A DNA stretch of 40,267 bases, from the NCBI GenBank assembly GCA_017515205.1, contig JAFWHN010000004.1, positions 1-40,267 on the forward strand, written 5' to 3'. The notes beneath the pieces are model-generated. The model saw only the letters and a list, made by a program, of their open reading frames with translations, made no database searches and was not told the origin of the DNA. This DNA comes from Candidatus Saccharimonadota bacterium. GTDB taxonomy: Bacteria > Patescibacteriota > Saccharimonadia > Saccharimonadales > Saccharimonadaceae. Each line of letters begins with the position of its first letter. Position 1 is the first letter of the stretch. The translations under genes and the position numbers were made by a program. Shown here one piece after another: positions 27,438-30,412 of the stretch.

Positions 27438-27992
27438 CTATTCAACTGACAGGATTTTGCCAGTACCGAGCTCTAGGTGAAGGAGACGCTGGTTCTTGGA
27501 GCCGCGAAAACGGAGGCTGAGGTCACGCTGGCTGAGGATGAAAGGACCATCAATTAGAGCGTCCAAGGATTTGAGAAACTCCCAAGGAGCGCCACCGTGT
27601 TCTTTGATAATCTCATAGGTAAAACCAGAGAAGCTCCAGACGTTCCAACCGAGTTCTTTACGGCACCAGTCAGCAATTTCCTTGCAAGATTTAGCCTGAA
27701 CAAAAGGTTCACCACCACAGAAAGTAAGACCAGCTTGACCTTTAAATTCTCTCAGCTCTTTTTTAAGGTCGTCAATTTTGACCAAGAAGCCGGCTTCGTA
27801 GTCCCAGGTTTCAGGGTTTTGGCAACCTTTACAGTGATTGGGACAGCCCTGAGTCCAGAGGACTACGCGGAGGCCGTCGCCGTTTACGATGTTATCATGC
27901 TCGAGCGGACCGGACATCCGAATGTAGCCATCGGGCGTTTCGAGCTGGCGCGCAATCTTGTTTAGTGAAATTTGATGCCAATCTGTGTTCAT
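27438..27992 (-). CDS. nrdG: Anaerobic ribonucleotide reductase activase (radical SAM)
   Basis: 184 aa. It makes the glycyl radical on NrdD by reductive cleavage of S-adenosylmethionine. The 4Fe-4S ligands are CPNHCKGC (C-x3-C-x2-C) in WTQGCPNHCKGCQNP, and GGEP follows (TFCGGEP). About 22 extra residues precede the usual YIRMSGPLEHD-type start. GAGGAG lies 8 nt before the ATG. The gene lies after nrdD, across a ~120-bp palindromic element. The activase is intact although its partner lacks the recognised glycyl-radical motif. Confidence 0.92.
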   Translation of the reverse strand: MNTDWHQISLNKIARQLETPDGYIRMSGPLEHDNIVNGDGLRVVLWTQGCPNHCKGCQNPETWDYEAGFLVKIDDLKKELREFKGQAGLTFCGGEPFVQAKSCKEIADWCRKELGWNVWSFSGFTYEIIKEHGGAPWEFLKSLDALIDGPFILSQRDLSLRFRGSKNQRLLHLELGTGKILSVE

Positions 27993-28007: not shown

Positions 28008-28124
28008 AATGTTTAAATGATACTTTTCTCGATCCTCCTCGCTCGCACCCGTCGTTACGGGGCTCGCTTCGTCGTTCGCTCCCGTCGTCGCGAATGATCT
28101 CGAAAAGCATCATTTTAAACATTT
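28008..28124. repeat. Long palindromic element in the nrdD-nrdG gap
   Basis: The outer arms 28008-28034 and 28096-28124 are near-complementary over about 27 nt (ATGTTTAA, ATGAT, CTTTTC). They enclose ~60 nt that is much richer in G+C than the region, with repeated TCGYTCGCWCCCGTCGT-type units and an inner CCCGT/ACGGG hairpin. It starts 3 nt after the nrdD stop. The outline resembles palindromic intergenic repeats. An mRNA copy would form a large hairpin and could limit nrdG expression. A 38-codon ORF through it on the minus strand is taken as a by-product. Confidence 0.7.
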
Positions 28125-28126
28125 AA

Positions 28127-30322
28127 TTATTCTCCCTTAGCGCAGCTACAAACTTTCTCGAATGGGACATCACCTTCGAGTCGGCCACAATGTGGACAGC
28201 GATCGCCGGAAATGACACCAGAGAAGCCGCAGACTGGATCACGGTCAACTGGGTGGTTGACGGAACCGTAGCCGACACCTTCGTCGTGCATTTTGCGAAT
28301 CACGGCTTCAAAGGCTGGGAGATTCTGCGATGGATCACCATCGAGCTCAATATAAGTAATGTGGCCAGCGTTACAAAGCGCATGATACGGAGCTTCGATT
28401 TCGATCTTTTCGAAAGCGGAAATTGGGAAGTAAACCGGTACGTGGAAGGAATTGGTATAGAATTCACGGTCGGTGACACCTTTAATTTTGCCGTATTCTT
28501 TACGATCTATCTTAGTAAAGCGGCCAGCGATGCCTTCGGCTGGAGTAGCAAGTAAGGAGAAGTTGAGTTTGTGTTTCTTGCAGTAGCTATCACATTTTTC
28601 GCGCATATGAGTAACGATATCAAGGCCGAGATCACGAGCATCTTCATCTTCACCGTGATGTTTGCCAGTCATAGCTACGAGAGTTTCAGCCAGGCCGATA
28701 AAGCCGATGGATAGAGTACCATGCTTAATCACATCGCGTAAAGTATCGTTCGGGCCAAGTTTCTCAGAGCCAAACCAGTTCCCTTGCCCCATTAAGAATG
28801 GGAAGTTACGAACGTGTTGTTTAGCCTGAAAATCAAAGCGATCAAGAAGTTCATCTCTCACGAGATCCATTTTTTCGTCAAGCTCTTTATAGAAGCCATC
28901 CCAGTCAGCTTCTTTCCTTTCACCGAGGCAGATACCGTGCTTGATGCCAATACGTACTAGATTAATAGTGGTGAAGGAAAGATTACCGCGACCGGTGACA
29001 ATACCGTCAGACTCTGGGAAGACAGATGAAAAGACGCGGGTGCGGCAACCCATGGTCGCAATTTCGGTGCGATAATCACCCTTTTTATAATATTTGAGGT
29101 TATAAGGAGCATCGATGAAACAGAAATTCGGGAAAAGACGCTTAGCAGAGACCGCCATGGACTTTTTAAAGATGTCATAATTGGGGTCCTCGGGGTTATA
29201 ATTAACTCCCTCTTTAACTTTTAGGATAGAAATTGGAAAAATCGGCGTTTCGCCCTTGCCGAGACCTTTTTCGGTAGCGTCGAGGAAGCAATGAGAAACT
29301 AAGCGACCAGCTGGAGTGGTATCGGTACCGAAGTTAATACTGGTAAATGGTACCTGGGCACCAGCACGGGAATGCATAGTGTTGAGGTTATGGATGAAGC
29401 CCTCCATGGCTTGGAAAGTTTCGCGTTCGACATCTTCGTTACTAGCTTCGATGATTTCCCTCGGCCATTTGGCTTTTTTAAGTTTAGCATCATCACCATA
29501 TTCGTAATCATCTTTGACGGTGAGATCGAGTTTTTTACCGGTAAACTTGTTGTACTTTTCGAGATTTTTCTTCAAAGCTTTGCGGAAAGATTTGTGAACG
29601 CCTGGAGCCATGGCGTAGTCAAAGTTTGGGATAGACTGACCACCGTGCTGCTCGTTTTGGTTGGCTTGGAGTAAGATTGCTGCAAGAGCGCCGTAAGAGC
29701 TAATGGAATTCGGAGTGCGAAGATGTCCGTGACCAGTATTAAAACCACCATTTTCAAACATCCGGAATGGATCAGATTGACAGCAAGTCAGAGTACCAGT
29801 AGCGTAAAAATCAAGATCGTGAATATGGATGTCGCCGTTGTCGTGAGCCGCAGCAATATCAGGACGAAGGAGCAGAGATTTAGCAAAAACCTTGGAACCT
29901 TCGGCGCCGAACTGGAGCATTTTGCCCATGGCAGAGTTACCATCGACGTTGGCGTTAGACCGTTTAATATCAGAATCTTCAGAAGCGTCAGCATGAGAAA
30001 TCGTACGATAAATCATCATAAGGTCAGATTTGGCATCACGAATACGAGAGCGTTCTTGGCGATAGCGAATGTAAGCTCTGGCGGTTTTCTTGAAACTGGA
30101 TTCCATCAAAACTTCTTCAACGATATCTTGAATTTGTTCAACGTTAGGAGTACGAGCCGTAATGGTCTCTTCGGCACGCTTTAAAACTTTGTCGGTTAAA
30201 GCCTTGGCACGGTCATATTTAAATTCTTCTGTAGCTAGACCGGCTTTCGCGATGGCTTCAGTAATTTTATCGGGATCAAATTTGACGATTTTGCCGTCCC
30301 GCTTGACGATTCTTTTGAACAT
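28127..30322 (-). CDS. nrdD: Anaerobic ribonucleoside-triphosphate reductase, C-terminus lacking glycyl-radical motif
   Basis: 731 aa; reduces NTPs to dNTPs without oxygen. An N-terminal ATP-cone (residues ~3-90, KRDGKIVKFDPDKI) is followed by the catalytic barrel with TGTLTCCQSDP, GHGHLRTPNSISSY, NQNEQHGGQSIP, MGCRTRV and RGNLSF. The C-terminus has the expected HPVDRDPVCGFSGVI and CPHCGR zinc region (698-712). In the related NrdD family I know, PFE is followed by RIRRITGYLVG, where the Gly carries the radical. Here residues 721-731 are FEKVCSCAKGE and the protein stops; no other frame restores RxxGY. Either the enzyme is dead, or the Gly comes from elsewhere. The promoter has NrdR-like boxes. 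Confidence 0.9.
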   Translation of the reverse strand: MFKRIVKRDGKIVKFDPDKITEAIAKAGLATEEFKYDRAKALTDKVLKRAEETITARTPNVEQIQDIVEEVLMESSFKKTARAYIRYRQERSRIRDAKSDLMMIYRTISHADASEDSDIKRSNANVDGNSAMGKMLQFGAEGSKVFAKSLLLRPDIAAAHDNGDIHIHDLDFYATGTLTCCQSDPFRMFENGGFNTGHGHLRTPNSISSYGALAAILLQANQNEQHGGQSIPNFDYAMAPGVHKSFRKALKKNLEKYNKFTGKKLDLTVKDDYEYGDDAKLKKAKWPREIIEASNEDVERETFQAMEGFIHNLNTMHSRAGAQVPFTSINFGTDTTPAGRLVSHCFLDATEKGLGKGETPIFPISILKVKEGVNYNPEDPNYDIFKKSMAVSAKRLFPNFCFIDAPYNLKYYKKGDYRTEIATMGCRTRVFSSVFPESDGIVTGRGNLSFTTINLVRIGIKHGICLGERKEADWDGFYKELDEKMDLVRDELLDRFDFQAKQHVRNFPFLMGQGNWFGSEKLGPNDTLRDVIKHGTLSIGFIGLAETLVAMTGKHHGEDEDARDLGLDIVTHMREKCDSYCKKHKLNFSLLATPAEGIAGRFTKIDRKEYGKIKGVTDREFYTNSFHVPVYFPISAFEKIEIEAPYHALCNAGHITYIELDGDPSQNLPAFEAVIRKMHDEGVGYGSVNHPVDRDPVCGFSGVISGDRCPHCGRLEGDVPFEKVCSCAKGE

Positions 30323-30358: not shown

Positions 30359-30412
30359 ACGCTACATTTAGTGCTTAATACCTAGTATATAACACTAAAT
30401 ATGGAATTGCAA
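30359..30412 (-). promoter_or_regulatory. nrdD promoter with two NrdR-like boxes
   Basis: Minus strand promoter: TTGCAA (30407-30412), 17-nt spacer, TATACT (30384-30389). On the plus strand, ACGCTACATTTAGTGC (30359-30374) and ACACTAAATATGGAAT (30392-30407) each match the NrdR consensus ACACWATATMTAGTGT at 12 of 16 positions. Their centres are 33 bp apart, about three helical turns. One lies in the spacer, the other over the expected start, so binding should repress. NrdR itself is not in the window. Confidence 0.65.

Follow-up and report, generated by a model that had tools for sequence, protein, structure and literature searches.

A candidate two-polypeptide class III ribonucleotide reductase of Saccharibacteria, with its glycyl-radical segment encoded by a separate gene

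Introduction

The glycyl radical of class III ribonucleotide reductases (RNRs) has so far been treated as an in-chain cofactor. Here we describe the class III RNR of a Candidatus Saccharimonadota bacterium, encoded by nrdD on a stretch of 40,267 nucleotides (positions 1 to 40,267 of contig JAFWHN010000004.1, assembly GCA_017515205.1; referred to as the window). Its catalytic subunit has an ATP-cone, a barrel, the MGCR motif, an NxN flap, a Zn finger, an NrdG partner and NrdR boxes in common with the canonical NrdD proteins of Escherichia coli, phage T4 and Prevotella copri. The canonical proteins hold the glycyl loop and the tail in the same chain, whereas those of the window NrdD appear to be encoded elsewhere, in a small gene that we call SA (standalone).

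The closest described systems are the spare parts of pyruvate formate-lyase (PFL), YfiD/GrcA of E. coli and Y06I of phage T4. Like SA, these are small, separate proteins whose glycyl-radical domain is a copy of that of a large glycyl radical enzyme (GRE); they act in trans and are found in phages as well. YfiD repairs PFL that has been cleaved by O2, whereas in Saccharibacteria the enzyme is an RNR whose tail has been lost genetically, and the piece supplied in trans would be obligatory. SA also has an ATP-cone-like N-terminal domain, unlike YfiD/GrcA and Y06I. By sequence it falls outside the GrcA family (PF01228) and matches NRDD instead; in its way of working it would resemble YfiD/GrcA. 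Only YfiD and T4 Y06I, both serving PFL, had been validated as spare parts by 2021, when others were speculated to exist for GREs (PMC8683613).

Two other groups of enzymes offer partial parallels. The split class II RNR NrdJa/NrdJb of Pseudomonas aeruginosa (PMC4520616) is likewise built from two separately encoded pieces, but it differs in class, cofactor and split point and involves no glycyl radical. The aminoacyl radical enzymes, with Ala, Ser or Thr for Gly (PMC11528403), are likewise relatives of GREs without the canonical in-chain Gly. They substitute the residue in place, whereas here the whole segment would have moved to another protein with its Gly kept. In the open-access literature that we searched, we found no report of a trans glycyl-radical subunit of NrdD or RNR.

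Results

The source genome, a Saccharibacteria assembly from the rumen, measures 650 kb and is 91% complete. Its nrdD (28127..30322, minus strand, as are all window genes given here) encodes a class III RNR catalytic subunit of 731 amino acids (aa) with strong family matches (PF13597, E=6e-179, and PF03477, E=2e-22, in Pfam; NF005497, 1019.6 bits, in NCBIfam). The ATP-cone (PF03477) occupies residues 4-92 (30047..30313). The catalytic Cys426 of MGCR (29045..29047), which is the glycyl-radical acceptor by alignment to P. copri NrdD, is intact, as are the PAEG motif and the NxN flap Asn123-Ala124-Asn125 (29948..29956), whose P. copri counterpart contacts the conserved Arg of the glycyl tail (PMC11226230). 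The last conserved element retained is a Zn-finger remnant of the glycyl radical domain with its cysteines C698, C709 and C712 (28187..28231). Beyond it, alignments to Pfam, NCBIfam and the P. copri NrdD structure sequence stop at about residue 714, leaving the last ~30 profile positions, with RxxGY, unmatched.

The C-terminus reads ...CPHCGRLEGDVPFEKVCSCAKGE / ...VCGFSGVISGDRCPHCGRLEGDVPFEKVCSCAKGE and closes with 724-VCSCAKGE-731 (28130..28153), a replacement tail that is not conserved; relatives carry (L)RRITGYLVG in its place. No RxxGY lies between the nrdD stop codon and nrdG. These observations agree, in coordinates and residue numbers, with a preliminary description made from the sequence alone, which had NrdD ending before its glycyl segment, with VCSC at 724-727. 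Judged by its sequence, then, the window NrdD is a class III RNR minus one defining feature, the in-chain C-terminal RxxGY. Its activase is encoded alongside: nrdG (27438..27992) specifies a radical S-adenosylmethionine protein of 184 aa (TIGR02491, 131.1 bits) with an intact CxxxCxxC at residues 50-57 (27822-27845).

A search of the genome with the NrdD tail of the sister clade gave a single match, outside the window (contig C6:54465-54605, E=2e-17). It falls in SA (C6:54423-54857), a gene of 145 codons with a ribosome-binding site, whose product (MKKILYKNPNDAEAFDLKRF...FDEGKFERLRRITGYLVGTLDRWNDAKKAEEKARVKHCVNSSIDDAERLAALETQAMEQNVAYAQ) joins an ATP-cone fold to a perfect NrdD glycyl tail (FERLRRITGYLVG...RVKH), with Gly94 as the predicted radical residue. 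A short YfiD-like protein with RxxGY had been proposed as a search target in the preliminary description, and SA fits that description, being a small protein in its own right whose complete glycyl motif is homologous to a GRE encoded in the same genome. Its residues 84-118 have matches in the NrdD models at their C-terminal end only (85-117 corresponding to NRDD 532-562). The SA site was also among the 39 sites, mostly due to chance, that fit an RxxGY DNA pattern across the genome. The PFL-type Gly_radical family PF01228 did not match the SA locus, nor did it score above its cut-off anywhere in the genome.

The SA tail is strongly conserved. Across 60 aligned SA proteins, FERLRRITGYLVG..RWND..K.A.EE..RVKH is invariant, including Gly94, Tyr95 and Arg102; the invariant columns are F86-G98, R102, W103, N104, D105 and the RVKH end, with T99 as the exception. 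In P. copri NrdD, Gly711 bears the radical, Tyr712 bridges to Glu581 by a hydrogen bond and Arg719 holds the NxN flap (PMC11226230). SA Gly94, Tyr95 and Arg102 are the counterparts of Gly711, Tyr712 and Arg719. The conservation of these positions in SA and of their contacts in NrdD means that both sides of the interface are kept, now on two proteins.

An AlphaFold2 model of SA is confident for the N-domain (pLDDT 77-91) and poorly ordered in the glycyl region, as might be expected of a loop that becomes ordered only once inside its partner. Foldseek and VIA-align comparisons of residues 1-81 returned 42 best entries that were all NrdR or RNR ATP-cones, with Z scores from 9.4 to 4.1. The best of these had a root mean square deviation of 2.0 over 77 residues, and unrelated folds scored below Z 4. 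The predicted topology agrees with an ATP-cone fold.

Truncation of NrdD is widespread in the genus. Among 165 typed genomes, 92 have a truncated NrdD and 73 a normal RRITGYLVG tail. The truncated proteins share an end at PFEK/FERL, beyond which there are 1-17 variable residues; at the same point the full-length NrdDs of the rest of the genus run on as FERLRRITGYLVGSLERWNDGKKAEEAARVKH. Because the same end recurs in independent assemblies, the truncation is a clade-wide state and not a frameshift. The comparison with related NrdDs that the preliminary description had called for thus turned up no sign of the assembly error it had allowed for. On a maximum-likelihood tree built from NrdD barrel sequences, one change is enough to account for the truncated members (support 86/80; 83% of bootstrap trees), so the truncation has a single origin on this tree. 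Most genomes with a truncated NrdD have the start of nrdG 5-30 bp past the nrdD stop codon or overlapping it, which indicates a clean deletion of the tail. Short Cys-rich ends are common among truncated NrdDs (CSC, CNC, CGC, CDCVNCDCADCSC; at 28130-28153 in the window and at the same place in L031-L092), with their detail unconserved.

The presence of SA follows the state of NrdD. In genomes at least 95% complete, SA accompanies 48/48 truncated and 16/35 full-length NrdDs (Fisher p=1.6e-9), and over all typed genomes the counts are 86/92 and 25/73 (p=2e-16), p values that are optimistic, as the genomes are related. Incompleteness alone would lead us to expect 8.2 absences among the truncated genomes; there are 6. 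Synteny of SA with polA is confined to genomes of the truncated clade. Outside the genus, a phylum-wide sample of 380 genomes contained SA only in 4 sampled genomes of the sister genus g32, beside full-length NrdD. Since SA is found there with a full-length partner, it predates the truncation. Lineages in which NrdD still has its own tail probably lost SA on repeated occasions, and those without the tail retained it.

Both proteins are under strong purifying selection and thus maintained. The median dN/dS (NG86 method, with few unsaturated pairs) was ~0.026 for truncated NrdD and 0.057 for SA, falling to 0.011 in the SA glycyl segment. The view that the system is under selection, with NrdG intact and NrdR-type boxes present, is therefore upheld. 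NrdD is also the sole known RNR of these organisms, as no class I/II large subunit was found in any of the 22 genomes of the genus tested (22/22). In other genera of the order, such a subunit is present in 14/14 genomes. The genus (g1) appears to have replaced its order's class I/II reductase with class III NrdDG, gene transfer being the probable route.

Tandem NrdR-type boxes lie upstream of nrdD (30359..30403, minus strand) and, outside the window, upstream of SA (C6:54922-54966), with an identical 18-bp spacing between their cores. When the whole genome was scanned for the tandem pattern with up to 3 mismatches, only these two promoters were found, a third match being the opposite strand of the SA site. 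A reversed-pattern control gave 0 matches. NrdR itself was found in 155/170 genomes of the genus searched, in most of them just under the curated cut-off, and would, by extension from the genus, recognize these boxes.

Detached glycyl motifs also occur on contigs that IMG/VR assigns to viruses (L239-L285, L287-L366). On these, 76 distinct short open reading frames (ORFs; sought up to 200 aa, 40-150 aa in length) encode the NrdD glycyl motif in full. They fall into three architectures: minimal (~40-60 aa), with a beta-alpha-beta-beta N-domain, and of the ATP-cone type (on rumen contigs). In a second scan of 80 loci, 54/62 short glycyl ORFs had no NrdD barrel within a flank of up to 10 kb. Elsewhere, in NrdDs that were split independently, a barrel ORF ending after the Zn finger adjoins a separate glycyl ORF (L293, L300/L309, L313, L363, L267 and L245, upstream of the barrel in L245), or the glycyl ORF lies ~1 kb from the split NrdD (L341). 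NrdG was also detected in several of these loci. The annotated nrdD of the cultured Eggerthella phage EL753P1 (L286, 3741-7170) ends at the same point as the window NrdD, and pieces of the glycyl motif lie downstream in two different frames of the deposited record. Matches in Clostridioides difficile, a Paenibacillus plasmid and Clostridioides phage AR1086-1 were set aside, being annotated as ordinary single-chain NrdDs that reach the glycyl match. Some short glycyl ORFs may be exons of intron-split genes. An SA-like phage gene in L272 (~4260) stops right after RRITG and appears to be followed by an HNH-like ORF, which may reflect insertion of an intron or homing endonuclease at the codon for the radical Gly. 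The viral splits are unlike that of Saccharibacteria, both in sequence and in how the pieces are arranged; they lend support to the view that NrdD can be cut at this joint without loss of function.

Discussion

We consider it highly probable that these Saccharibacteria have an obligate two-polypeptide class III RNR with its glycyl radical on a trans subunit. This reading draws on gene content, co-occurrence, shared promoter sites, conservation and the predicted fold, and it gives strong support to the idea, already raised in the preliminary description, that another protein supplies the glycyl segment. NrdD would contribute the catalytic barrel together with the ATP-cone and Zn finger, and SA would carry the glycyl loop and C-terminal tail. 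NrdG would generate the radical on Gly94, probably after SA has bound NrdD. This order is modelled on YfiD, whose activation requires the presence of the damaged enzyme (PMC8683613). The RITGYLVG loop of SA would enter the barrel beside Cys426, as the covalent tail of ordinary NrdDs does, and the radical would pass from Gly94 to Cys426, with reduction then proceeding as usual. Before the split, full-length NrdD may have had SA at its side as an accessory or a spare, as would still be the case in 25 genomes of the genus and in the sister genus, until one lineage lost the nrdD tail and came to depend on SA. The architecture of SA resembles an NrdD with its barrel removed, and one may speculate that it arose in this way.

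If this reading is correct, DNA precursors can be made with a radical carrier that is separate and replaceable. The case would also answer a question that is open in the literature we searched, namely, whether spare-part proteins exist for GREs beyond PFL (PMC8683613). NrdD, SA and NrdG form ready sets for electron paramagnetic resonance, binding studies and cryo-electron microscopy. With the viral loci added, we put at about even the chance of a broader pattern. Class III RNRs would repeatedly have become enzymes of two subunits, the glycyl-radical one being an exchangeable cartridge. Orphan radical domains of NrdD, of three or more N-terminal architectures, would make up a large unrecognized family, whose members phages would use to repair or boost the host reductase, or to take it over, while encoding neither an 80-kDa catalytic subunit nor NrdG. 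Short phage ORFs called "anaerobic RNR" fragments or hypothetical proteins may thus be functional radical cartridges.

Several observations weigh against a two-polypeptide enzyme. SA is unlinked to nrdDG, and two genomes with truncated NrdD (G070 and G189, both 92% complete) have no detected SA. These organisms might salvage deoxynucleosides. The 91%-complete assembly yielded no NrdR, probably because of a gap: SA lies ~10 kb from the contig end, and nrdR is ~9-15 kb from SA in close relatives. Finally, the ATP-cone likeness of SA is structural only, with no PF03477 match and an hhalign probability of 1-3%. The KRDG nucleotide hairpin is absent, YKNPND/YFEPSD standing in its place. Given the lack of sequence homology and of this hairpin, the domain presumably serves docking and not nucleotide sensing.

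The best of the alternatives, which we nevertheless regard as improbable, is that SA is only a repair protein or regulator and that the truncated NrdD is decaying or not a reductase, with deoxynucleosides coming from hosts. Saccharibacteria are host-dependent, and SA does occur beside full-length NrdD in 25 genomes of the genus and in g32. Against this, the truncated NrdD keeps its catalytic residues and is under strong constraint, nrdG and the promoter boxes are preserved, and SA is kept more strongly with truncated than with full-length NrdDs.

It is very unlikely that a different residue bears the radical, for example, new C-terminal cysteines (CSC/CNC) acting as a thiyl or redox tail. C-x-C does recur in many truncated tails, but the tails vary within one clade (CSCAKGE, S, G, A, KNA, HKHTVKGKVEA), all but the first of these being free of Cys, and a full glycyl module is available from a separate gene. 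Because the tails vary and some are free of Cys, we reject VCSC as an alternative radical site, and the earlier suggestion that this clade uses another residue is not supported. We give just as little credence to a tail joined to NrdD after transcription or translation, by trans-splicing or a split intein, into one chain. The family alignment does show the two halves meeting at one position, but SA has its own promoter with boxes, a ribosome-binding site and a folded N-domain, and no intein or intron boundary was seen at the end of nrdD, where nrdG abuts or overlaps in relatives.

Least credible of all is an assembly or sequencing artefact, or loss of the tail through the strong palindrome directly after the nrdD stop codon in the window, already refuted by the 92 truncated genomes from various hosts and studies, most of which, including the closest relative L031, lack the element. 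This palindromic element, resembling repetitive extragenic palindromes (28008..28123, unstranded, between nrdD and nrdG), forms a hairpin with an RNA minimum free energy of -50.4 kcal/mol (z -7.3). In L031, whose NrdD is 96% identical, nrdG starts at +24. The element is a later, unrelated insertion outside the system, and the proposal that it had replaced the tail does not hold. GC-rich inverted elements of other sequence sit at the nrdD-nrdG junction of only a few other truncated genomes; junction palindromes were noted in L037, L056, L064, L076, L091 and L213, and several have a CCCGTnrCGACGGG core in common.
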